This document shows positions 2,878 through 53,139 of a stretch of DNA of 64,000 bases, one piece after another. Positions within the stretch are counted from its first letter, which is position 1. Every line of letters starts with the position of its first letter. The notes under the pieces are model-generated. The model saw nothing but the letters and a program-made list of their open reading frames with translations. It did no database searches and was not told the origin of the DNA. Position numbers and translations under genes: made by a program. The stretch comes from Siphonodentalium dalli (taxonomy: Eukaryota; Mollusca; Scaphopoda; Gadilida; Siphonodentaliidae), in NCBI GenBank assembly GCA_032622095.1, contig CP136067.1, positions 78,642,705 through 78,706,704 on the forward strand, in the 5' to 3' direction.

Positions 2878-3460
2878 TCAAAGCGTTTTGTCGAAGCAAT
2901 ATACTGTTGCACTATTTGGAAAAACCTTATATTCTCCGGAATTGAGATGTACCATATCCCGAAAAAAAACCTGATCGATGTCGGTTATAATGAAGCGTTC
3001 GCGGTTTAACTTATCGTCAAGTTCCAACAATTCATTTTGATATAAAGGGCACATAAAAAAGAAATGGTATGCATCTTCCAAAGGGTTCCCACAACTGCAA
3101 GCAGGACTTTCGGCTATGTAGTTTTGATACATATCAGCACGAAGATCACTGCACCCGTTTCGAATTCGGGAATGTATCATATTATATCGTCTGAGACCTG
3201 AATAGAAGTGAGGGCTCACGGGGTTTGGGGGTTGGTATACGAGTCGTAAATTGAATTTGAAGTCAGAGAAAGGGACAACGTCGGTCATTTCAGTTGGGAT
3301 TTTGTTCCAATCAGCTATCGCCGAGGACATGCAGAAAGGACTTCTTGTAGTGCTCAGTGTGGCATCGGTAAGAATATAATTTCCCCGGGCGTCTGGAATT
3401 ATAACTTGAAAGTGTTGGCTGCACTGTCTATACAGAGAGGCAATTCACTTAGATTTCGCT
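2878..3460 (-). pseudogene. LINE C-terminal fragment (non-LTR retrotransposon)
   Basis: Read on the - strand, the region encodes the tail that follows the reverse transcriptase in many jockey/CR1-like LINEs. There is an 'SPFCMSSAIADWNKIP' block (usual form: SFLP..I..WN.LP), then 'RYNMIHSRIRNGCSDLRAD', then a zinc-knuckle-like 'CSCGNPLEDAYHFFFMCPLY'. A 150-codon open stretch (2878-3330) continues upstream in frame to about 3420. No RT core is present, so this is a 5'-truncated copy, as is typical of LINE insertions. A second, more decayed copy of the same tail lies at 21080-21550, also on the - strand. Confidence 0.8.
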
Positions 3461-5269: not shown

Positions 5270-5960
5270 AATTCAAGATGGCTGCTGGTGCCCATTTGTT
5301 TTTTTTTACGAATTTCGGAAAAATAATAAAATAAATACAAGATGGCTGCCTGCGGCCATGTTTTTCAGCCAAGAATTGACAGATCCCATCTAGAGGTGAT
5401 CCTAATGACCATGTACATTTTCTTCGATATGTGCAGGGTGTGCCGATGTATTTAAATTTGAAATACACTATGGCTGCTGGCGGCCATGTTTTTTAACGAA
5501 CTTCGGAAATAATCGATAGCTCACATCTAGAGGACACCCCGAAGATCCGTATTAAGTTTGGTGACGATCGGATGAGTGATGTGGCCGGTAGGGTGTTCCG
5601 AAGGATTTATTCATGCAAAGAGTAAAACCCAAGATGGATGCTGGCGGCCAAGGCTTTTCAACCAATTTCGGAAATAATCCCATTTAGAGGTCATCCCGAA
5701 GATCCATGTGCAGTTGGGGGATCGGATGAATGTGGTCTGTTGGGTATGCCAACGGATTTAATCATGCTAAGAGTAAAATTAAAGATGGACGCTGGCGGCC
5801 ATGTTTTTCATCGAAAGTCGTTCAAATTCGATATATCCCGTCTATAGATGATCCTCAGCATGTCTGTAAACTTTCAAAATAAATCTCCAATAAATGCCGC
5901 TGAAGGATTTGCCGATGTCTTTAAATTTGAAATCCAAGATGGTCATATATAGAGCCCGAG
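5270..5960. repeat. Tandem repeat, about 150-160 bp unit
   Basis: About five diverged units recur, each marked by AAGATGGCTGCTGG(C/T)GGCCATG-like wording (5276, 5340, 5469, 5631, 5783, with a trace at 5936). Each is followed by an AATTTCGGAAATAAT block and a TCTAGAGGTCATCCCGAAGAT block. Spacing is about 150-160 bp except for one shortened unit (5276 to 5340). The core is palindromic (GGCGGCCATG). It is non-coding: open frames across it simply echo the repeat. Confidence 0.75.
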
Positions 5961-6783
5961 ACTGCCTATCGACACAATATTTACATATGCGTCTCGATTT
6001 GCTAATCGTCGACCATTAAATAACGCAGAACCGAATCGAAACAGCAGGTGAACTTTTGTTGTCGATAATATGAAGCTTCAAAATTCTTGCCTTCATTTAA
6101 GAAATAGATGTAGTGTGTGTGCTATTGTGGGATACGGTGCTGTGGTTGTTGGGGTATATTGTGCGAACCGCGATGCATACCACATCGGCATACCCATCAA
6201 TAACACACAACCCGCTATATATTCATTTCTTATATATTTATATAGCTTTTTGATGATTTATTCCCACAAGAAGTGTATTCTTATTTATTTTTACAAAATC
6301 TGCCGAGAAAGAGCACACGCAGCACATTAAGTCAATCAAATATGAGATTTCCAAGCACTCAGCAAAGGTAACGTGATCAATATAAATAACTGGCTTCAGA
6401 TGCAATCCTGTTGAACTTTGAAAAGCGCGCCCAATTATTCTGCTGACCGCTTTTAGTGATTAGTTCGAATTATGTCTACCATTTGTGTCATCGTGTTCGT
6501 GTTACGGTCTGTGTATTATAGCGGTATGGAACGGGTGGCCCAATTGGCAGTTGACCAATCACCGAACAGAATTTAGTGTAACACAGACGTGCTTTATGTA
6601 AATACTAGCAAATGTACCCGGCGTTGCTCGGTGAAGAATTTATTAGTGGCCCTTCAAGTCATTTTAATTAATCAATAGTCATATGGGGTAAACAGCAGCT
6701 ATTGCGTGAATCTCCAGATAAAGTTATAACAGCTATCTTTTAAGTTGACAATAAACGCTCTGTCTTGCTCATTATTAGAGCCT
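5961..6783. other. No gene recognised
   Basis: Short open frames only. A TACCCGGCGTTGCTCGG word at about 6616 resembles wording common in invertebrate repeats, but the element it belongs to cannot be bounded. Confidence 0.3.
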
Positions 6784-6820
6784 CTTTAAGGTCTATTGGA
6801 CGTGGTGACAATAGGTGACA
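6784..6820 (+). repeat. Left terminal inverted repeat
   Basis: A 37-bp arm matching the reverse complement of 14585-14621 at 35 positions. It contains the internal direct repeat GGTGACA-ATA-GGTGACA, which may be a paired transposase binding site (inference). An A-tract follows immediately inside. Confidence 0.75.
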
Positions 6821-8422
6821 AAAAAAATTGCCAACCTGATAACTGGGCAGACATGGACATAACATGAACCCCAAAATAAGCCACTGGGGTTCATGACAAA
6901 TACTATAATCAGCCCTGAAGAAAAAATAATTACTGCTCATGTCTAAAGTAACCTTTGAAAGGCACTTTTATATTTTGAAAAAAGATATTTAAAAGAATAA
7001 ATAAAACTAGACAAGAGGTAACACGAATACGAGGTAACATGAACGCACATATCATGGATTTCAGCATGACAAACATAACGATCGGATTAGAAAAGAACCT
7101 TTTTGTTATGAAAGAAACACGGCCTACATTGTTATGGCGATTAGATAATGCGATCGAGTTGTTCTTCTTGCGTTTCTCAAAATGTTTCATTTGACATTTT
7201 TTATGTCAACAAGATGCGGAAGAACACGAAATCGAGAAATCAGGAACGCGCAAAAAACTAGGAGTTTATCGATTGTGTGAAAACAATATTGACATATTGA
7301 AAAACTAGTTACAATTTATAAATTATAGACAATTGTGGTATTTGAATAACGTCCAGCATTATTTGGAACTTACTAATTTTTTTCGGACGCAAAATGTCAA
7401 AAAATTTATAGCCAATGAAAATCACTTCCGGTTTCAACAAACTACTTCTGCAAAAAATGTAAACTTGCCGTAAAAATGTCTTCAAATCGTGTTGACACAC
7501 TCGATCACTCATCCGATCTCATGGAATATATTGGCAAATAACATGTTGACCACGAAGAAAGCCTAGTCGAAGCTGATACCTGTTTGATGTTGCCGATCGA
7601 GTACAGAGAATAGACGACCACGGCGTACATCAGTGTACATGCTCTCTCGTGTTTTGAATTGTCAGCAAAAAGGTATATCTCCAAAATCGAGCATTTCATT
7701 CGAGCATTTCATAACATTAATAAAACAAGCGATTCAAGCTATTTACGCCTCATCAATATATGTCATGTTGTTGGTTTACTTGAAGTTTATTTCATAATTT
7801 GATTAATGACATGTCCTTTGCTAGCTCAATTTCAGTAAGATATTAGGTTCTGTCACATGTAGAAAGCCGTATGCTTTGGTTGGGATATATGATTTTCAGT
7901 AAAAATGTATGGAATGGCAGGTGTGAAAGAATCCAGACGGGAGCACCTGTCAATGAAACTGCAGACTTTTGGTTTCCCATTATAATTGGATTTATGGGTG
8001 TTTCAAACGTAAAAAAAACTAATATTTAAAATAATTGTCAGTATATATCGATGCATTAAATAAGTATGTTGAACAAATGTGTCTAAATTAAAAATAAAAT
8101 GCGAGCTGAAAATGACTAATAGTATTTCGTCTTGACCAATCAAAGGCATGGATTTCCTTACTCCAGCCAATGAAATACATGCTTGGCATATTGACCCTTC
8201 CCATGTGCTTCAACTGCCAGAATATGTGAATGTTTACAAAATCTCCATTGATTTATGTTGGAAGAATAGAGAACTAATAATAATTTAAATTTACCGGCTG
8301 TATCTGTATCTTCGTGGATACCAAATGTTGCCAGTGATTGATAAATAGTTATATTTGTTGCTGTATATATACAATATAAATCCCTCTGATTATGTTCTAA
8401 TATAGATGTGCCGTATTTTCAA

Positions 8423-9169
8423 ATGTCGTTGAGTAAAATAAACAAATCTGTTTCAAAGCTGACTGATGCTGCTCATAAATTTTAATTAAGTAGTAAATAT
8501 AAAGTGTTTGTTGTGTCAGATAGTAAGGGTCGATATCTGAAAAATGAGGTGCAAGAATTTGACATTGTTAAAATAAAGTTTGTGTTTGAAACTGGAGCCA
8601 AGGTTGAGAATAATTTTAAAGGACTGGAGTCGAGAATTGTTGATAACATTTTGAAGTGTCCACCATCTTGTATTCCTATTGTATTTATTTGGTTAGGCAC
8701 TTGTGACGTTTCGATTATTACAAGACCGGATAATCATTTATTCCTTCCACAAAATAGTGACAAGAAAATAGAGAAGAGTATCATCAAACAAATTAAATTG
8801 AAAGAGAGAGTAAAAGAATGTAACCCTCATTGTAAAGTTATGTTTTTGGAATGTCCATATGTTTCTGCTGTTGCTTGGAATACATCTAGGACCCAGCATC
8901 TTAATTCTGACATTGATAGTGATTTGGTTACCATCGTTGACAAATTCAACTCGGATTTACATACATTGAATTTAACTCCTGTGCCGAAATTCAATGCCGA
9001 TTTAATGTATACAGCTATTGTCTCTGGAAATCGGGCTACAAAAGTCAATTACAGCTTTTTGACGGACGGTGTTCATCCTTGCACTAGGTTTTCAAGACTG
9101 GTTATTGAGAATATATTCATTATGCCAGAGACTAACACAATAATGAAACTCAACAGACACCAGGTTTAA
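8423..9169 (+). pseudogene. SGNH/GDSL-hydrolase-like transposon protein, one stop
   Basis: An ATG at 8423 opens a frame that meets a TAA at 8483 and then stays open in the same frame to 9169. The last 221 codons show the landmarks of the SGNH hydrolase fold: VSDSKGRYL (block I, Ser codon 8516-8518), FIWLGTCD (a block III-like loop after a hydrophobic strand) and TDGVHP (block V, Asp codon 9065-9067 and His codon 9074-9076). SGNH enzymes usually hydrolyse esters. SGNH-like domains also ride in several invertebrate transposons and LINEs, where their role is unknown. The single nonsense codon suggests recent inactivation, or an upstream exon joined past it; no obvious acceptor was checked in detail. 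It lies about 140 bp before the transposase ORF on the same strand. Confidence 0.65.
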
Positions 9170-9309
9170 GGGATTGCTCTGTCGCCAGGTGTGAGTATCT
9201 GTGTAAGTCTGCTGGTTGATTTATCTCATTACATGTATTTGCATTTATGTCACTTGCATATTCGATTTTGACTTTTGTTGTTTGTTTTATTAATCCTTGA
9301 ATAGATATC

Positions 9310-10680
9310 ATGGGTAGCAAGAAAAAAGTGAGTAAAATTTTCAATAAGACTCGTCGCCTTAAACGGTTGAAGCAGTTGCAATGTTCATATGTATTTGAAA
9401 CAGAAGGTCAAGGATTTGATCCAACAAAAAAATATGAAATAATATCCAATGACTTCTCGGATGAAAGCTGCACACTTAAAATTAAATTTAAACCCACAAT
9501 TGAAAAGCCTTCTGGATATAGAATTATTGATTTAGATTGTCTTGAGGATCATATCACCCTTATGTTAAATCACTGTAAAGAGTGGTTTGCACAAAAAATA
9601 ATCCGTGTGTTAACATTATTGAAGAATGTCAGAAACATGGTCTCGCGAGTGTTTTAAAATTTCAGTGTGGTGATTGTGGAGATGTGTTTCTGTTCAGGAC
9701 TTCCAAAAAGGTTGAAATTCCTGGCCCTGATTCTAGGGCAAAAACATTTTATGATGTGAATGTCAGAGGTGTGTGTGGAACCTTGTCAACTGGTGGTGGT
9801 GCTATTGAGCAGAGTGAACATATGGGCATATTAAATATGCCTGGGTTGTCCAGTAAGGCTTTTGGTCGAATTGAAAATGTTCTTCAACAACAATGGCATG
9901 AGGTCCTCCTTGAAGACATCCTCCAAAATGGCATTGAAGAGAGAAATCTAGCAAAAGAGCGGGTAGATTTCCATCAAGGTGTACCAGCTATTAGTCATTT
10001 GTGATGGTGGCTGGTCCAAACGGTCGCACAATCATTCATACGATGCATCGGGTGATGTAGCAATGATAATTGGTGCAGCCACCCGTAAACTTTTGTATGT
10101 TGGTGTGCGAAATAAATATTGCTCTGTGTGTTCTGATGTGAGTTGCACTAGAAAATCTAAATCTGATAGACCTATACGTGTACTACTAGAAATGATACTA
10201 GTACAGGAAATATAAAGGGTGTTTCATCAGATGATCCATGTCAGGCTGTTGTTGCTGCTCAAGTTGATTTCTGGAATCAGATAGAGGGTGTGTCAGATGA
10301 TGGAGTAGAATCTGGTGGTTATGCAGCCCTTAAAAATAAAAAGCGTATGAACGACCTCCATAAACTTCTTGATAATTTGGCCTCAAAATCTGCAGCCCTT
10401 ATCCAGAATAGCACCACAAACCTTGCTGAAAAATGGATGATTAGAACGAAGTTTGATGAAGGAAAGATGTTCAACAGGACTAATCGGAGTTCTTGACATA
10501 CCAGATGCTATGGTGCTGGCTTGAGGAAGAATTTGGGTGTTAAATTGGGCCCACTCACATGGGAAAAGATTTTTTGGAACAGATGATGGTTACCATTTTG
10601 AGAGAGAATATGAAAAGCGAGAGAAACATCTACAACGCAGCTTTAAGAGCCAGAACCAGCCCAAGGTGTAGGAAAACAGG
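9310..10680 (+). pseudogene. Mutator-like transposase region, frameshifted
   Basis: The protein reading moves through three frames. An ATG at 9310 starts a basic N-terminus (KKKVSKIFNKTRRLKRLK). The frame changes near 9590 beside an A-run, then gives a CGDCG zinc-ribbon-like patch and 'GTLSTGGGAIEQSEHMGILN'. It shifts again near 9990 into 'VICDGGWSKRSHNHSYDAS', followed by 'IGAATRKLLYVGVRNKYCS'. That D-G-x-W-x-K-R block and what follows are characteristic of the Mutator-like transposase domain of invertebrate elements, where the Asp is expected to be the first catalytic acidic residue. After about 10200 the frame breaks again and the stretch expected to hold the second acidic residue appears missing. 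A later piece (LAEKWM..RTKF..GKMFNRTNR) restores family resemblance before the YqaJ part. It is inactive in this copy. Confidence 0.7.
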
Positions 10681-11556
10681 AGAAAAAGGGAAAATTGCTG
10701 CTGCCAAAGAGGGTACTACGAAGAAAGCCAGATTGGAGTATGGGCCTGAGGAATTGGAGGTTTTGGATGATATTGATGAGGTTGCTCTGTCTCAGTGTTG
10801 TGAAGATTTTTTGAAAAAACATATCCATGTCTCTCCTGAATCTATGTCATCAATTGAGAGTAATACTAAAGCTCAGTATGCAAGTGGTCTTTGGTCAGAA
10901 AAACGTCGGATAAGGTTGACTTCATCTAATGTTGGAGAAATTGCCAAGAGAAAAACATCATTGATGTTGAGCTGTTTGTAAAGAGGTTGCTTTATACAAC
11001 ATTTCATGGCAACAGGATTACTAGAAAAGGTCTAATTTTGGAGAAGTCAGCAACACAAGAATACATAAACCAACAAAAATTAGTTATGGACATCTGCTCA
11101 GTTGAATCGATGGGTCTTTGTATTTCTTCTGATTTTCCTCACTTGGCAGCAAGTACAGATGGGCTTGTAGTTAGTTCCCCTAGAGGCAAAGGACTCTTAG
11201 ATATCAAGCATGTTTTGTTGACCAAGCAGAACAGTTTTCAGGAAGCATGTTCTTCGGTCAGCAATTTCCCTCTTGAATTTATTGATGGTAAATTAGATCT
11301 GAAAAGAAACCACAATTTGTATTACCAAATTCAAGGGCAGTTGAACATTTTTAATCTTCCGTGGCTTGATCTTGTTGTTAGGAGGATAAATCCTTATGAA
11401 ATATTTATAGAACATATTCAGAGGGATGGGGAATTTTGGCATAACAAAATGGTTCCAAAATTGAATTCATTCTATCGAAAAGTTATTTTGCCTGAACTTT
11501 CAAATCCAAGGTATGGCAAAGTACCAGGAATCAGGGAACCAGGAAGTTGGGTATAA
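10681..11556 (+). pseudogene. YqaJ/lambda-exonuclease-type nuclease domain
   Basis: After a charged linker (ELEVLDDIDEVALSQCC..), the frame gives the start of a YqaJ-type domain (KRRIRLTSSNVGEIAKRK) at about 10905-10950. It shifts by one frame near 10970 and runs open to TAA at 11556. The nuclease landmarks are ILEKSATQEY, AASTDGLV (acidic residue), LLDIKHV (D-x-K where the family usually has E-x-K) and YYQIQGQL (conserved Gln). The family digests or resects double-stranded DNA ends in phage recombination. In transposons it is found fused behind Mutator-like transposases. This is probably the C-terminal half of the protein that starts at 9310. The frameshift inactivates it; whether the D-x-K change is tolerated cannot be judged. 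Confidence 0.75.
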
Positions 11557-13084
11557 AATATTAGTAATACTATTAAGAGGTAGATGCTTCATGACAAAGA
11601 CTGTAGATGAAATTAAAATTTTGAACATTCATTGTGGAATTTCATAAATAAAACAAAATTAAAAGAATATTCATGAGTCACTGCAGAATACAACTGTACT
11701 AGTAGTTGTATGATTTTAATTCCATTTACATATATGGACAGCAGGAAGACCGCCCATTTTGCCATGCCAATCCTATACAATCTATTGATGCTTATTTTTG
11801 AATTTTTTGTTTTGTTGGCATCTGTTATCAATATTGTACAAATAGAAACCACTACTGTACTGAAGATTAATGGGAAAATACCACATGTAGCTTTAATAAT
11901 ATAGCACATGCTATGAGAGTATACTTGTAGATACCGGTATTGTGGTTTGGCTTGATTCAACATCAATTCTTTTTATTCTCCGTGATTCAGTGAAACTGTA
12001 ATGTAATCTGACATGAAACCTCTTCCTTTTTTCCAATATCATGTCTGTGAGAATGAATTTTTTTTGCACTATCTTCCAGAACTGAATACGAATACATTTC
12101 ATTGAATTATTAAGCTTACGTGTAGCACTCATTATGGTTTTACAATGTATTTATATATTCATCAAGGAATGTCAACTTCTGATCGAAATGTTTTACTTCA
12201 TGTATGTTTTATCTTACACCAAATATCAGATAAATACTATCAACTGCTACATGTATTTAGTCAGTTCAGACACTGTTACATTTTAAATTATGATATATCA
12301 TTACTCTCTCAATAAATGGATATGTTATGAATTTGCATATAGCTATCCAGCCTTGTGCTATACATTGTTATTGTTAATTTAACAGCTGATAACCAACATG
12401 TGTTATAATATACTTACTATTCATATATTTGTGAGTTTGAAGAGGAAAAGGTGAAAGTCCCCATTCCAAGAAGAAGATCAGCAAGAAGGCCTGATAACTC
12501 AGATGATAATACATATATAAAGTGTTAACTTTTATTATCAATTTAATACCTCCATATATATGTTTGAATATGACTATTATATATAATGTTGATGACTGAC
12601 ATGTTAGTCCTACTGTTTCTATGATTATAATTAACCATTTTTGTATATGCAGGCGGAGAGATGTTCCTAGCGCAAATGTGAAAAATACCATATATAACTT
12701 TGAGCGAAATCAAGCAAGAAATAGATGTCGTGTAAAATTAAGGATGATATAGAACTAATGCATAAACATATGTATAAATATAACTCTGACCTCATGACAG
12801 TATGCATAATACGCCATGTTTTTCTGGGGGTTTTTTGTGTGTTTTTTGTTTGTTTTTATCGTCTCCAATGAGGTGTGAATAAAACGGTTCCTCAATGCTT
12901 TAGAACGACTTGCACGTGCGCTGAGAACTCCTCTCCCCTCTCTGTTGTGAACTGCGCATGTACCATATATATATACGCCGGCCCGGCCTTCCCGTTGTAA
13001 AGGCTTAATGTATAGTTTAATTGTAATGGATATTGGGGTCGGGCGGGTCGGTGGCTTCATGTATGCTCGAATACCACAGTATAA
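11557..13084. other. Transposon interior, no gene recognised
   Basis: AT-rich sequence inside the candidate transposon. The open frames (for example around 11613-11966 and 12374-12691) are hydrophobic, lack family landmarks and overlap on opposite strands. A GC-richer patch at 12900-13060 precedes the next ORF. Confidence 0.4.
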
Positions 13085-13412
13085 GTGGTGAAATGGGTTA
13101 ATTCAGATGAACCAGATGCATCTCCTGCACCCACTGTCTCCGCTGTGTCATCTATCGGTATATGTTCCAATCAAGCAAGCACTTCATCTGGCAGAACTAG
13201 GATCCAGCACTTTCTCAACCGCAAAATATCACACGAGTGGGTTGATGACATTGACGCGGTATCAGTGCAGAGTGTTGTCGCTAGTGAGTGGTGTGGGTGG
13301 CCGGGAAGGAGCTATATATGAAATCTACTATGATGAGCACGATGATGTGTATGAGGTAGATCATCTTGTGGAAGACTACAGGTCGAACTCTGTCAAATTT
13401 ATTGATCTTTAA
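13085..13412 (+). pseudogene. Unrecognised transposon ORF, frameshifted
   Basis: Two overlapping frames read as one protein with a shift near 13280. The first gives a Ser/Thr-rich stretch and 'TRIQHFLNRKISHEW'; the second gives 'GREGAIYEIYYDEHDDVYEV' and an acidic tail ending in a stop at 13410-13412. I do not recognise the family. The composition is protein-like, the strand matches the transposase, and it lies inside the terminal repeats, so an accessory or C-terminal piece of the same element is plausible. It could also be a fragment of another element nested here. Confidence 0.4.
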
Positions 13413-14584
13413 AGGTGAGATTGTTTTCTTTATTCTTAGCATCTCAGATTTAACCCTTACGTTCTATTTATGTAACATGAATCCCTGTAGATTCTTCCTT
13501 ACCATCAGATAGATTGTTGTCTTTAATTATCTTGTTTGAACTTGACTTGTCAATTTATGGATAGTATTTGATTTAATTATCCAAAAATAATAATTAATCT
13601 GCACTTCAGCTTTCTGCTATATAGTGATACTGGTAGAATTATTGTTGAGTTATCAGCATGTTCATATCAATTAGAAAAACAATATATCTTTAATAACTTT
13701 TAATCATATATTATATAATAAAAAAATTCATCCGGCTTATATGTAATTATACATTTATCTATCATTCTTATTTTTTAGATCTGCTGCTGATGCTGCATGT
13801 CTATTTATTTAAATTATTTATTTATTTAATGTGGAACACACATCATGGTGTTTTAAATTACTGCCAAAGCTACTGATGTCACATATACCATTAGGTAACT
13901 ATTATTTTCATTTTCAGCCCACTTTGCTTACAAAAAAGTTTGTCAACTGTCAGTTGGCATGTGAATTATTCAGATTTCATCTTAAAGAAGTCACTAGCAT
14001 GCAGTAGCCACTACACCAGTCTAGTCAGATGGTATATTTACCACATACAGTTCATTTGTTCATCATCAGTTCCTTTAATGCCAGAGAGGCGTGCACTCTA
14101 TCATTAAAGTCAGAATTAACAATCAAATGCATACTTTCAGGTAATTCTGACACACTTGCTGCTAATCTAGTGCAAACTGCTTTGAAGAATCATTACTATT
14201 TTGTGCTTCCATACTTTCTACATGCTAATGTAGTTCCAGCAATGTGAATTTTGCTAAAAGTAAACAATGATAAACATCTTCTTTCAACATGTTTCATTAT
14301 ATTTTGTCTGCTGTTATGTAGCGCACGCCCTGGTATAGATTCTGACTTTTATCATAGTACTTTCCTTCTCAAATTTCAGGATTCTACTACTTGAAAATCT
14401 GTCTTGGAATATTTGTCTCATATTTTCGGACACATTCACATCAAAGGTCACCAAAGTGAAAAATAAGGTTAGTTATTTAGTCCTACTATGTCCAATTGTT
14501 GTATACACTTGCTCATGCTGCTGTCAGAAATATGTGCCAAAAATACACCCAGTGGTCCTATATAGCATGTACTCATTTTTTTAA

Positions 14585-14621
14585 TGTCACCTATTGTCAC
14601 CACATCCAATAGACCCTAAAG
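14585..14621 (-). repeat. Right terminal inverted repeat
   Basis: Reverse complement of 6784-6820 with two mismatches, both transitions. The inner side carries a T-run matching the A-run at the left end. The flanking bases outside (CATTTGAGATC) do not repeat those outside the left end (ATTAGAGCCT), so no target duplication is seen. Confidence 0.75.
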
Positions 14622-14767
14622 CATTTGAGATCAACAGCACATATCACGTGACATTTCCCGAGTCATTTTACTTTTGTGCACACATGTTCCCGCATAGCGT
14701 CTGAGCTAATAATAAACGCTCTTTGTTTTGCAAATTTTCAGCTCCGATCGTCCAGCCTTTCGGTCGC

Positions 14768-15419
14768 CTATAAGCTGACAAACGAACGAAGAAACAACAA
14801 ACAAAAGTTAGTTTCATTAGTATAGCTTAACATATACCATGCATGTCTGACAGCAGGTTTCCGTTGGTTTCTATCGATATCAAATTCTTCATCCAAAACA
14901 TCTAATTTGTGTGAGATTATAATGTTTACGGTGACTTTCCTTCTTGTCGATCGCATGCGGCATTATTTCAGATTGTTTATGTAGTTTGAGAATCATTTCC
15001 GATTTGTATTTTGGAAACTTCAATTGGAGTTTGAAGATTATTTTCAGTTTGTTTGGATTTTGCCCACGTATATACAGTCTCCAGCTTATGTATTCTCTCC
15101 TGAAGACGCGATTCTACACTTAACTGATGAATTTTCATTTCCTCGATGAGAGTTTGTATGACTAGGCAATTTTCATTGTCACGGATGCTGAAGCATCCAT
15201 ATACGATTCTCTTTTCTGCTCTATACGTCATTTTGGAGTATTGACACTGACTCGCAATTTTTGTATATATATAGGAAGTTTATCTTTATGAGATACCGGA
15301 GTTTCCGTCAAGAGAGCAGATGCAGACCCCATCAGCTCATCCCAAGTATACAAACCGTGATGTGCAGATGCACCAAGACCTTGCGTGTTCGGGAATAATT
15401 TTCCTAAATGTTGGCACAA
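14768..15419 (-). other. Possible decayed coding region, unknown
   Basis: Three consecutive short open frames on the - strand (15419-15228, 15231-14977, 14956-14768) have protein-like composition. One contains 'TLIEEMKIHQLSVESRLQER', which could form a coiled coil. The first two overlap by four bases (ATGA), more likely one frame broken by a shift than two genes. No domain is recognised. It may be a remnant of a mobile-element protein or chance. Confidence 0.2.
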
Positions 15420-17387
15420 TATACGGGAAGCTCAATATAGCCACTGTAATACACACTTAACATCGATCCCTGTATCATAACTCTGTTGTTCGTTTTTCAT
15501 ATGTGTGTATTGTTACTTTCTTGTACTTTACTTTTTGGTTGTATTCTTATATATCATTATCAAGTCTCCAACTGTTGTACCATTTGTATCTGTCACAACC
15601 TTCATGAAAGCACCATTCTTTTCCCTGTTCTTCGTATTATTCCAGAATATGCTGTCCACAATACCATGTATACATATTCTTCGAATCGTACATTGTCCAA
15701 TGCAATTGCATCACACTTTCCGCTATCTTTTTGTTCCGATTCAACTGAATTGTCAGAAAAGTTATTTTTTTCATCAATGTGTCCACATTGCGAGAGTATA
15801 TGTTCAACCCATTGTTAATAAAAAAAAGTTCAATTGAAGCACTGAGTTGTATGGGAAACAGTAGGAGAGCTTATTTGCAGCTTTCTATTTCTCGTGTTAT
15901 TTCAACAAGAGGTAATCGTGGTTAGACTTTCGAAGCAATTGGTTTTATAATTGTATTATCCGTTTAACCCTTGTCATGGATACGTCATGAACACATCAAC
16001 TGATGATCAACGAAAGAGCTCAGTCAAATCTGGGAAACGCATGCCACGTGCCAAAATGAAGTTCCGGTGTATAGCTGCCAGATTGCATCCAGTGCACAGT
16101 TCAGTAGATCGAACGGAGTCCCTTATATCACAACGTTGTTGTCCCACCGCGTCATCAAAGTGAGCGCTGTGCGGGAATCGTGGTGATAGAAATGAATACG
16201 GGACGGGGCACCTTTATACTGCGCAAAAACAAACACTGGTTATCACACATACTAAAAGGCCCCAAATAGAATAAAAACACAATAACAATCAAAATCGTAA
16301 TGAAATTGATTACATTATCAAGATGTCTGGTGTAGTTTTTTCTGCCCCCACTGTTTCTCTATCAGGTCAGGATGTTCTTCCCTCGCCGTCATTTCGACGT
16401 TGTTGATAACGTTGTTGCATCCGCTGTGCTCGGCAATTGAATGAATCGCGGCGGAAATCTCAACACGGTTAGATACATTTCCTGGAATTTGTCAAAACTG
16501 AGTACGGTGAACACAATCATTCTGTCTAATCGGGATGCCCCACAACGAACACGCTGCACGTGAGATGGATTTCCTATCACTAAGAGGATCGCGTTCGGCG
16601 TATATTAAATGCAGTGTGTATTACCACGATACACTGCCACTGTCTATAAGCTGACTCGGAAAGAAGAATTAATGTTAACATAAATATATTTAATAAAAAA
16701 TTAATTCATATATCAATATGATGATAAATAAATAAAAGTTCGCTGACCAAAATGTCCCCCAACGAAGGTTGCAGGTTTGAAGGATGTATGGTGACACTCC
16801 ACAGTTTCGAATGATCAGTAGGGGTAAATTTCTTAGAATAGAGTATCAGTGTGTTCTGACACCATGAGTGTGGCATGTTTATTGAGAGAAGGTTAGTTAT
16901 GAATTTGTGGATTTTTAAAGGATGTCTTTGAGTTTTGAAAAATATTGTTTCAGGTGACCTTGACCCCACCAGTATCATGTAGTAGCGATTTCTGCGAAAC
17001 AGTGGCTCCAGACACCAGCGTGACTTTTTAGCACCTAAAATTTGTCATCTGCATGAAAATATTTTTTTGGAAATCACAGTGGTGAGAAGTTTGAACTTTT
17101 TTAATATTATTGTGAGGAAACAGTGTTCTTCCAGACAACATAGGCGGCTATGCTCCGAAAAATCTTGTTTTTGTGTTCCACGGGCCCGAAAATCGGTTAT
17201 TTTGGCCATTTTTACATCAAAATTTCATTTTTCAGGCACACAATCAATGGGCATAACTCTTGCTACCCCCATTAACATGATAATTCTGTATAAAAATCAT
17301 AAATCCTAGTATGTGCTCAACCCAGTCATATATACATTGTATGTGTGTTGTGGTTTCACATTTCAGTTATTTTTCAATGAATTTATG
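15420..17387. other. No gene recognised
   Basis: Only overlapping short frames (for example two + frames at 15486-15837 that share the same DNA). A short CpG-containing patch lies at about 16020-16180. Nothing coding can be supported. Confidence 0.35.
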
Positions 17388-34509: not shown

Positions 34510-34705
34510 GAGCCATCATTGGTTTCTCTGAGTCACGTGACGCATCAGAAATCAGATGGAGGATATATTGATAACTAGTGTTACTCAGCTACTACAAATA
34601 CACCGGCATGACAACTTAATGGGATGCTATAAGATATATTGTACGTGGTTCAGTGTTGTGTTAAAGTAGAGAAAGTTTACGCGTTCACGGTATTCTGTCG
34701 TCGCG
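34510..34705 (+). promoter_or_regulatory. Hox2 5' flank / putative promoter and 5'UTR
   Basis: Immediately upstream of the Hox2 ATG. A dense cluster at about 34529-34546 overlaps TGAGTCA (AP-1-like), CACGTG (E-box palindrome GTCACGTGAC) and TGACGCA (CRE-like). A weak TATA-like AAGATATATTG follows at about 34629. The start context (GTCGCGATGG) has a purine at -3 and G at +4. The transcription start is not visible in sequence alone. Confidence 0.4.
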
Positions 34706-34991
34706 ATGGACGACGGTTTGGAGACAGGTTTTATCAACAGTCAGCCTTCAATGGCGGAGTTTATGACGAACGTTCCGGGTATGAATGGAACGTATATGAC
34801 TTCGACTGACACGGGACTACAAGCTTACTGTCAGCCGTTTAATGGAGGGTATTTACCTCCAGAGGCTATGCCTCCTGTCGGAGGGAGCCCCGCTTTGCCA
34901 GATCCGTCGGGGATCGGATTAAAAATTCCAGATTTTCCTTGGATGAAAGACAAAAAATCAAGACAAAAATCCCCTTCGTCGGTCATCATGG
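34706..34991 (+). CDS. Hox2: Hox2 (proboscipedia-class) exon 1
   Basis: First coding exon of a predicted 682-residue Hox transcription factor. It encodes residues 1-95 plus one base. It begins MDDGLETGFINSQPSMAEF, where GFINSQPS.AE is the N-terminal signature of Hox2/pb proteins. It ends with IPDFPWMKDKKS (residues 74-85), the family hexapeptide (FPWMK) that contacts PBC/Extradenticle-type cofactors. Start choice: first ATG of the frame, good context, and it gives exactly the conserved N-terminus. The exon ends at the donor ATGG|GTAAGC (phase 1). A 102-codon frame that reads through the donor is an artefact. Hox2 proteins pattern anterior regions in the nucleus of neural, mouthpart or foot-field cells depending on the animal. 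Confidence 0.96.
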
Positions 34992-35320
34992 GTAAGCATA
35001 AATTGTGTACTTAGCTTAACAAATTATTTTTCTTTTCTTTTATATTTTATAACCGACGAGCAATTCCCTAATACTACACTAAGAAAGGGGCCATATGAAT
35101 GCAATTTCGTATTCCGAAAACGAAACAGATTCTACTACATATATTTATAATAGAACATTTCTCATATTTATAATATTTTAAATACAATAAAATTCTTACG
35201 ATAATACAAAATTAGATACATTGTCGATACATTGTTTACAGTTTATAAATGTTTCCTATTTACCAAACACTTTGCAAATATGTTGAGACCACCATTAATA
35301 TTGCAAATACAAGCAAATAG

Positions 35321-48574: not shown

Positions 48575-48768
48575 ATCCATACGATCAGTCCCAGAACAAT
48601 GTAAACGGTATGGTTGCGACAGCACAAAGCGCCACTGGGCGACGACTTCGAACGGCCTACACCAATACGCAGCTGCTCGAATTGGAGAAAGAGTTCCACT
48701 TTAACAAATATCTGTGTCGCCCGCGACGAATCGAGATAGCGGCATCTCTGGATCTTACCGAACGACAG
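48575..48768 (+). CDS. Hox2: Hox2 exon 2 (homeodomain 1-44)
   Basis: Encodes residues 96-160. The acceptor is TTTTATTTCAG|AT and the donor CAG|GTAAGA (phase 0). After a short linker ([20 protein letters not shown]), the homeodomain starts at residue 117 with [20 protein letters not shown], continues [20 protein letters not shown] and ends TERQ at position 44. The N-terminal arm (RRLRTAYT), [17 protein letters not shown] and CRPRRIEIA are characteristic of Hox2/pb among Hox classes. This exon alone encodes helices 1 and 2 and the start of helix 3. Phase joins correctly with exons 1 and 3. Confidence 0.97.
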
Positions 48769-48787
48769 GTAAGACCCATATAAGAAA

Positions 48788-49479
48788 TTATATAATCAGT
48801 CTGAGTGAACCCAGTTATATAATTAGTCTGAGTGAACCCAGTTATATAATCAGCCTGAGTGAACCAAGTTATGTAATCAGTCTGTGTTAACCCAGTTATA
48901 TAATCAGTCTGAGTGAACCCAGTTATATAATCAGTCTGAGTGAACCCAGTTATATAATCAGTCTGGGTGAACCCAGTTATGTAATCAGTTTGGGTGAACC
49001 CAGTTATATAATCAGTCTGAGTGAACCCAGTTATATAATCAGTCTGTGTTAACCCAGTTATATAATCAGTCTGAGTGAACCCAGTTATATAATCCGTCTG
49101 TGTTAACCCAGTTATATAATCAGTCTGAGTGAACCCAGTTATATAATCAGCATGAGAGAACCCAGTTATATAATCAGTCTGAGTGAACCCAGTTATATAA
49201 TCATTCTGAGTGAACCCAGTTATATAACTAGTCTGAGTGAACCCAGTTATATAATCAGTCTGAGTGAACCCAGTTGTATAATCAGTCTAAGTGAACCCAG
49301 TTATATAATCAGTCTGAGTGAACCCAGTTATATAATCAGTCTGAGTTAACCCAGTTATATAATTAGTCTGAGTGAACCCAGTTATATAATCAGCCTGCGT
49401 GAACCCAGTTATATAATCAGTCTGAGTGAACCCAGTTATATAATCAGTCTGAGTGAACCCAGTTATATAATCCGTCTGC
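48788..49479. repeat. 27-bp minisatellite, about 25 units
   Basis: Units of TTATATAATCAGTCTGAGTG + AACCCAG recur with point differences (GAGTG/TGTTA, CAGTCT/CAGCCT/CCGTCT) from about 20 bp past the exon 2 splice donor. As 27 is a multiple of three, spurious open frames run through it on both strands (EPSYIISLS or GFTQTDYIT repeats). These are not proteins. Confidence 0.97.
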
Positions 49480-51090: not shown

Positions 51091-51570
51091 ATTTAAGATA
51101 AATCTGGTTTCTGGTGGAAAATCTGCCCGGAGTGTCTGGTTCACTCTAACCATTAGTGTATAGCATGATTAATCCAACGTTTAAAGGCCGCCCCGCATCC
51201 ATTAAATCCACACGCATAGGATACTGATTGCCATGCACAGCTTGCTTGTGTTACCGGTATCACTGATTATTTGAGAAAATCTTGACCAAAAGCTAAATCC
51301 AATGCCGTTGGAAATTATTGCTTATAAATCTTACTATTTTACTTTTATTTGTTCCTTCCACTTTTTAAATGATGGGTATTTTGCTGCATATAATTGTGAA
51401 GCCAACTCTTGATTTCAGTTATTTTAAAATGTAATAGATAGTCCTACTGCATGATTATGTAAACTGCTCATGAAAATGGTGTCCAATTCAATTATAAAGT
51501 ATACAATTCACAATGTTTACAATCGAACTTTAAATACATGTTCTATAGACGATACCCTCATCATTTACAG

Positions 51571-53139
51571 GTCAAGGTCTGGTTTCAAAACCGCCGAATG
51601 AAATACAAACGACAAACAACGTCACAGCGACATAAAGCGGAACTGGACATTTCGTTGGGTGATTGTGCGTCTATTGCCTCTCTTAGTGACACGAACAGTA
51701 TGGAAGAGACTGACCATAGAACTTTGTTCCTCGACGATTCGATGGCCGGAGCAAAGAGCCATGTCAAAGAGGAATCGAGAGATGATTGTGATATAAATAA
51801 TCCCGTGGAAGATCGGGAAATATTCGACATGATCACGCTAGAAACTAAGAAGGTTGAACCCATTGAGACTGGCTGTGAGAATATGGACAAAACGTTGCTC
51901 GAGTTCGGTAGAACGAATTCTACTGCTCAAAATTCAGATTCGGGTTGTTCTGTAACATCAACACTGGAGAGTTCTATTCATTCACCCGGAAGTGCCCACA
52001 GTGCAAACAGTCCGTCTCCGGCTTCTACCTTTGCTGATTCTCAGGATAACGCTAAATCTCAGTTGTCTCGGAGCACAGACTCTCCCGGGGCTCATAATCT
52101 GAGCGACGAGGAACTCCGTGGTGGGGCAAACACCCCATCCGTGGCAACTAGCGAAGAGCGCCCAGATCTCAAGCTGTCTCCCACAAGTCACGTGGCAAAT
52201 ATGGGTGGAACTTCGCCGGCGAAATCTCCCACCACAGATGCGATACTCGCTGAGAAATCGGACCAGCAGGCGAACGATACTCGTTATTATTTAACTGAAA
52301 ACATATATGGTTCGAAATTAGGCAACATCATTTCACACAATGCCGCAATAATGAGACAAGAACCTGGACAAAGAATGAACAATGACTCAGACGATAAAGA
52401 CAGTTTGGCGTTCAGTGATGTGTCACCTGAATCACACATTCTAACTTCGAAAGACGAAAATGCAATGAAAGATGTTCGTGGCATACAACTACCGGTGAAA
52501 CATGAAATTTCGCATTACGGACCTAACCATGTCAACGAACAACACCAGTATGGTCTCAAAGACAGTGCGCAATATATTGGAAATTACGACTATGGCGTGT
52601 TCGGACACTTCAGTAATCCTAGTCGAAAAGTGAACATCCATAACGCTAACATGATGGAATCGTATGCGCGAGGTTGGTCAAATAACGCACGAGGGATGAG
52701 AGAAGAAGCAGACGAGCGTTCACTGGAAGTGTATGCCACAGCAGGATTTAATCAAAATTCTTTGAGTGTCTCAGAAAACCAGCAGGCATACGCCGAGAAC
52801 AAAATGAACAGTCACACAACATCAAGCGATGGAAGGTCGGACTTCTACGCTAGTCAGCACGCAGATGGGTTTCTGACAGAAGCCAGAGTATCTAGTGAGA
52901 ATGGCTTCTCGCAAAACATTTACGCCAACCCCAATAACACTGAGTACCCTGGAATTCATCAGGATGACGTTTTGAGCGGCGGCGATAACAGGAAGCCGAG
53001 GTGTAACACCGAGTACCAAGGCAATAGGCCATCCTATCAACCGTATGCCAATTATCCGGGGTATCATACAGAGGGGCAGAATTATTTCAGCGATTTCTAC
53101 AATGCTAGCCAAACTCTGCAGTTTCAGACACTGAATTAA
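51571..53139 (+). CDS. Hox2: Hox2 exon 3 (homeodomain 45-60 and C-terminus)
   Basis: Encodes residues 161-682. It opens VKVWFQNRRMKYKRQT, completing the homeodomain with Gln50 (residue 166) and Asn51 (167) that contact DNA bases. Position 56 is Tyr where vertebrate Hox2 has His. The long C-terminus is low in recognisable domains: acidic and Ser/Thr-rich to about residue 330 (for example STLESSIHSPGSAHSANSPS), then Asn/Tyr/Gln-rich, ending in an aromatic tail (NYPGYHTEGQNYFSDFYNAS). Such tails in Hox2 proteins are poorly conserved and act in transcriptional regulation. The frame is unbroken to TAA at 53137-53139. The ORF upstream of 51571 is intron; the acceptor TCATTTACAG fixes the exon start. 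Confidence 0.97.
   Translation, partial: VKVWFQNRRMKYKRQTTSQRHKAELDISLGDCASIASLSDTNSMEETDHRTLFLDDSMAGAKSHVKEESRDDCDINNPVEDREIFDMITLETKKVEPIETGCENMDKTLLEFGRTNSTAQNSDSGCSVTSTLESSIHSPGSAHSANSPSPASTFADSQDNAKSQLSRSTDSPGAHNLSDEELRGGANTPSVATSEERPDLKLSPTSHVANMGGTSPAKSPTTDAILAEKSDQQANDTRYYLTENIYGSKLGNIISHNAAIMRQEPGQRMNNDSDDKDSLAFSDVSPESHILTSKDENAMKDVRGIQLPVKHEISHYGPNHVNEQHQYGLKDSAQYIGNYDYGVFGHFSNPSRKVNIHNANMMESYARGWSNNARGMREEADERSLEVYATAGFNQNSLSVSENQQAYAENKMNSHTTSSDGRSDFYASQHADGFLTEARVSSENGFSQNIYANPNNTEYPGIHQDDVLSGGDNRKPRCNTEYQGNRPSYQPYANYPGYHTEGQNYFSDFYNASQTLQFQTLN

Follow-up and report, generated by a model that had tools for sequence, protein, structure and literature searches.

The question raised by this locus is to which superfamily a 7.8-kb transposon of the scaphopod Siphonodentalium dalli belongs, and which of the genes between its ends are its own. 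The transposon lies on contig CP136067.1 (GenBank assembly GCA_032622095.1) in a window of 64,000 nucleotides (positions 78,642,705 to 78,706,704, forward strand), which is the whole stretch of DNA that was analysed and whose own numbering is used below. The original prediction described a Mutator-like element with 37-bp inverted ends enclosing, on one strand, an SGNH-fold open reading frame (ORF), a transposase running into a YqaJ/lambda-exonuclease domain, and an unknown ORF. Our analysis suggests that the element is probably a single inactivated copy of a DNA transposon of the Kolobok superfamily, of the published KolobokE type. We infer superfamily and lineage from the ends, the TTAA/CTAA flanks and the homology of the transposase and nuclease.

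Ends and presumed target site of the element

Local alignment paired positions 6784-6828 with 14575-14621 as an inverted repeat in which 35 of the 37 outermost bases are identical, and a repeat finder reported an inverted pair of 44 nt at 91% identity. The alignment score of 73 is far above chance, the maximum across 500 dinucleotide shuffles being 34. A 17-base core, GGTGACAATAGGTGACA, is present exactly at two places in the window, and allowing up to three mismatches, for which 0.09 occurrences are expected, adds no further place. The predicted near-identical inverted ends around same-strand ORFs were thus confirmed, and the coding parts described below do lie within one transposon, enclosed by its inverted ends.

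The 37-bp extent of the ends, however, needs revision. The outermost six bases read CTTTAA on the left and CTAAAG on the right. Because TTAA is its own reverse complement, a duplicated TTAA target mimics an added stretch of inverted repeat. In this one copy, the outer six bases of each side are best read as the palindromic TTAA target (CTAA on the right) and two further bases that match by chance, and not as part of the element. With this interpretation of the boundaries, which comes from one copy, the element would span 6790-14615 on the + strand (7,826 bp), beginning with GG and ending with CC. The left terminal inverted repeat would occupy 6790-6828 (+ strand), with 30 of its first 31 bases identical to the right end, and the right terminal inverted repeat 14575-14615 (- strand), with its CC end on the + strand. 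These ends of 31 bp or more carry a doubled GGTGACA motif. Shortly inside the left end, a hairpin at 6863-6895 has perfect 10-bp arms (CATGAACCCC/GGGGTTCATG), and GGTRACA appears again at 7017 and 7033; the hairpin and the recurring motif are possible candidates for transposase-binding sites.

Directly outside the GG...CC ends, the sequence of this copy reads TTAA at 6786-6789 and CTAA at 14616-14619, the latter differing from TTAA by one base. Given the chosen boundaries, GG at 6790 and CC at 14615 give the ends the form 5'-RR..YY-3'. Excerpts of PMC9587614 describe TTAA duplications and 5'-RR..YY-3' ends for Kolobok; since they set these ends apart from piggyBac, an assignment to piggyBac was rejected. 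The one-base difference in the target pair has a precedent in Xenopus Kolobok, for which ten full-length copies of 6.8-13.9 kb are listed in an excerpt of PMC6004289, nine of them flanked by TTAA at each end and the tenth by TTAA/ATAA.

Like Mutator-like elements (MULEs), including Phantom, the element has inverted ends and a DDE transposase; unlike them, as described in excerpts of PMC6446971, it has no 8-11 bp duplication beside its ends. We scanned 360 boundary pairs at several lengths each, listing exact direct matches of 4-6 bp and matches of 7-12 bp with one mismatch or none. Five direct matches were found (one of 4 bp, three of 6-of-7 and one of 7-of-8), none of them symmetric to the inverted repeat. 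No Mutator-type duplication of 7-12 bp, one mismatch being allowed, was therefore present directly beside the repeat, and the Mutator assignment was rejected for this reason. The TTAA/CTAA flanks and GG..CC ends fit the TTAA targets and RR..YY ends that are published marks of Kolobok and not of Mutator. The Mutator superfamily label of the original prediction was accordingly abandoned, "Mutator-like" being the name that Pfam gives to PF20700, the family matched by the transposase.

Several observations weigh against Kolobok. The right TTAA is imperfect, only one copy is visible, and 8.6% of the 4-mers in the window match TTAA within one mismatch (0.7% exactly), so that the target site is suggestive but not proof. 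According to an excerpt of PMC6004289, a THAP domain is usual in Kolobok transposases, though excerpts of PMC9587614 do not name it as a defining mark. None of the scanned pieces, among them the N-terminal frame 9301-9654 searched at an expectation value (E) of 10 or less, gave a THAP match. In addition, the likeness to Kolobok is drawn from published descriptions, whereas the Pfam name points to Mutator. An off-register direct match of 7-of-8 pairs 6776-6783 with 14610-14617 (boundaries 6784/14609), and there are also the 6-of-7 matches, one of them with boundaries 6781/14622. A true MULE with a nuclease would account for the Pfam name and for these matches; Phantom, for example, is listed in animals with duplications of 8-10 bp and ends of 18-613 bp (PMC6446971, excerpt). 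However, the boundaries of both direct matches are out of register with the inverted repeat; with an end at 14609, the final 12 matching bases of the right repeat would fall outside the element. For the 360 boundary pairs and several lengths, a hand estimate puts the chance expectation at about 0.1 for such 7-of-8 matches and about 0.5 for such 6-of-7 matches, and no other Pfam transposase family, such as MULE, matched the pieces scanned. We consider a true MULE unlikely.

Transposase and nuclease

The transposase region was placed at 9310-10583 on the + strand by PF20700 matches, a three-frame reading and motifs, and it is interrupted by frame changes and by a single in-frame TGA (10494-10496). 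PF20700, which Pfam names "Mutator-like transposase", is matched by two adjacent pieces, one covering profile positions 31-151 (E 1e-17) and the other 152-203 (E 1.5e-12). The two pieces lie in different frames at consecutive profile positions and meet, by arithmetic, at about 9991, which indicates a plain frameshift. Profile positions 204-357 had no match in any scanned piece, being lost, too decayed or outside the scanned pieces, and the frame 10170-10493 had no PF20700 match. Reading the three frames by eye, we counted roughly six changes of frame and a single in-frame stop over 9310-11556, with introns still possible except at 9991. These breaks indicate that the copy is inactive.

The visible motifs are CDGGW at 10000 (first D at 10003), CxxC as CSVC at 10120, YTC at 10173 and TTNLAE at 10413, the last of which we take, judging by eye, to be the candidate region of the last catalytic E. 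CSVC and YTC, which are separated by a frame change, may be the remnant of a CxxC...(H to Y)xC finger. Kolobok transposases also have a second D, the C/DxxH motif and, in most lineages, a zinc finger ahead of the last E, none of which was found in this broken copy. In excerpts of PMC9587614, the C/DxxH motif is common to MuDR and Kolobok, and KolobokE and a few further lineages have a CCHC finger following the first D. Weak matches were set aside, from Pfam for 9310-9657 (Vps23_core, 0.037; DUF6695, 0.09; Arm_vescicular, 0.13) and from PHROGs for 10170-10493 (phrog_6375 polymerase, 0.011; phrog_2745 repressor, 0.016).

Downstream on the same strand, a linker and a lambda-exonuclease/YqaJ/RecE-like nuclease extend over 10590-11556, as judged from Pfam, NCBIfam, PHROG and motifs. 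The open frame 10930-11556 matches PF09588 (YqaJ) with an E of 1.5e-5, above the curated cut-off, and phrog_434 (RecE-like exonuclease) with an E of 1.7e-6; a match to the lambda-exonuclease family TIGR03033, at 0.006, is below the cut-off. G...E..A...Y, DG...DIK and YYQIQ, presumably the nuclease motifs, are intact. A weak match of 10559-10981 to PF01771, viral alkaline exonuclease (E 0.11, below the cut-off), was set aside. A search of PDB sequences gave no match for the nuclease, and AlphaFold run from the single sequence gave a predicted local distance difference test (pLDDT) score of 31.1. The transposase is thus followed by a YqaJ/lambda-exonuclease domain as predicted, but not in a single intact frame, because frame changes break the stretch.

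Nor is the combination of transposase and nuclease unusual, as had been claimed, since the same pair is described for KolobokE in excerpts of PMC9587614. The element resembles KolobokE, as described there, in its TTAA target (with one difference at the right), its RR..YY ends, its transposase followed by a lambda-exonuclease-like PD-(D/E)XK nuclease and, possibly, a CCHC remnant after the first D. It differs from KolobokE in the SGNH-like ORF upstream and a third ORF downstream; the terms "SGNH" and "hydrolase" do not occur in the main text of PMC9587614. KolobokD, KolobokP and KolobokH likewise have an accessory nuclease or helicase adjoining the transposase, but the same excerpts name a DEDDh exonuclease, a His-Me finger homing endonuclease or a RecQ helicase, and our repeat search reported no direct repeats of the size of those of KolobokP. 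Compared with the published marks of Kolobok and KolobokE, the ends and the nuclease agree and the target site and finger are consistent; neither a Mutator duplication beside the ends nor a recognisable THAP domain is present. In the open-access literature, we found no Kolobok paired with YqaJ, nothing relevant on YqaJ with a Mutator-like transposase and no mention of PF20700.

In an active element of this kind, the DDE transposase would bind the inverted ends with their doubled GGTGACA, cut there and insert the element into a TTAA target, duplicating these 4 bp, as is known for TTAA elements. The downstream PD-(D/E)XK nuclease would probably trim or resect the DNA ends of the donor gap or of an intermediate, and this end resection would probably steer repair. 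The Kolobok reading implies a probable correction of name, as an element filed as "Mutator-like" by its Pfam label bears the target and end signature of Kolobok, and other PF20700 labels may conceal Kolobok elements.

SGNH-like and third ORFs

Upstream of the transposase on the + strand, three-frame reading, motifs and shuffles indicate an SGNH-hydrolase-like ORF at 8423-9169. Its ATG at 8423 is separated by a single stop (8483-8485) from 227 open codons. This stop-free stretch, 8486-9169, is longer than any frame seen when the element was dinucleotide-shuffled 400 times (longest frame per shuffle: median 108, maximum 210) and was therefore probably a coding frame until recently. The motifs SDS, GTCD and DGVH follow each other in this order at residues 11, 71 and 194, with the N of the usual GxND block reading C in GTCD. 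None of 200,000 residue shuffles held all three motifs in their zones, the patterns and zones being chosen post hoc and C being allowed for N.

Searches with this ORF found no Pfam or NCBIfam family at an E of 10 or less. PHROGs gave one weak match, of unknown function, at 0.29, and PDB sequences gave one weak match to a Vps25 winged helix (E 0.6), which is not an SGNH protein. AlphaFold from the single sequence was uninformative (mean pLDDT 30.8). The open frame that was predicted does exist; its SGNH identity is at the motif level only. The third ORF, at 13092-13412 on the + strand, was delimited by three-frame reading and is possibly composed of pieces of two frames; as predicted, it is an ORF of no known family, with no Pfam match. 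Hidden Markov model searches of the ORFs thus recognised the transposase and the nuclease and assigned no family to the other two.

We take the SGNH-like ORF to be an accessory or captured gene inside the element. It is quite possible, if short of probable, that this ORF, the third ORF or both are nested insertions or captured host sequence within a Kolobok-like transposon, outside its own gene set. SGNH genes do occur in other elements, namely in CR1 retrotransposons and as texim captured by fish Helitrons (PMC4021074, excerpt), and the SGNH-like frame has one stop, compared with the many breaks in the transposase and nuclease. However, no repeat pair of at least 20 nt brackets the ORF within 5500-16000, where we found just the outer ends and one flanking 33-mer, and the ORF is on the same strand as the transposase. 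That the ORF at 8423-9169 is not an SGNH hydrolase and that its motifs are coincidental appears somewhat unlikely. The lack of a family match, the non-SGNH nature of the sole PDB sequence match and the Cys in place of Asn agree with coincidence; the correct order of the three motifs, which no shuffle reproduced under patterns and zones set after viewing, argues against it. We consider it rather unlikely that the element represents a KolobokE sub-lineage with two further stably encoded products, a small third protein and an SGNH-hydrolase-like accessory protein that serves transposition. For the texim proteins of fish Helitrons, a role in transposition is one of two possibilities offered in the excerpted PMC4021074.

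The element resembles the Helitrons with texim and the CR1 elements with SGNH proteins in having an SGNH-type gene on a transposable element, but the element classes differ, and the likeness is one of description and not of sequence comparison (PMC4021074, excerpt). A search of the open-access literature for Kolobok elements encoding an esterase gave nothing on point by title among the matches listed. As the transposase-plus-nuclease pair is already published for KolobokE, what is unusual here is possibly the SGNH-like passenger frame. If other copies retain this ORF, Kolobok would be a further class of mobile elements, beyond CR1 and Helitrons, that carries SGNH proteins, and such SGNH-carrying copies would help to test the use of these proteins to transposons.

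Searches for relatives and surroundings

No locus was confirmed in viral contigs searched with pieces of the nuclease, the transposase and the SGNH-like ORF, and phage records searched by tblastn with the nuclease piece gave no match; these negative results say little about an animal element. One viral contig contains the 17-base end motif once. Of its 13,233 bases, 701 were viewed by eye and contained nothing element-like, and we take the motif to be there by chance. Another viral contig, which matched a motif pattern, was rejected because its reading frames look unrelated by eye. Rfam gave no matches at gathering scores.

Just outside both ends of the element, an exact 12-base direct repeat, AATAAACGCTCT, has its only two occurrences in the window. 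It sits in a 33-nt match of 73% between 6734-6766 and 14695-14727, the score of which was reached 5 times when the flanks were shuffled base by base in 500 trials. This 33-nt match is possibly the remnant of an older element that hosted the insertion.

Farther away on the + strand, a long exon at 51463-53139 codes for the C-terminal part of a homeodomain (PF00046, 7.5e-5, with a score exactly at the curated cut-off). A frame upstream of it, at 34670-35014 on the + strand, has no Pfam match and contains FPWMK, which we assume to be a Hox hexapeptide-like motif. The partial homeodomain and this motif point to an animal host. Together the two look like a Hox2/proboscipedia-type gene, so that the transposon may be situated within an invertebrate Hox cluster or close to one. 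On the - strand, an ORF at 2878-3444 has a weak zf-RVT match (E 0.086, below the cut-off) and looks like the 3' end of a reverse transcriptase of the long interspersed nuclear element (LINE) type. A minisatellite-like open frame with TDYITGFTQ repeats lies at 48657-49286, also on the - strand.

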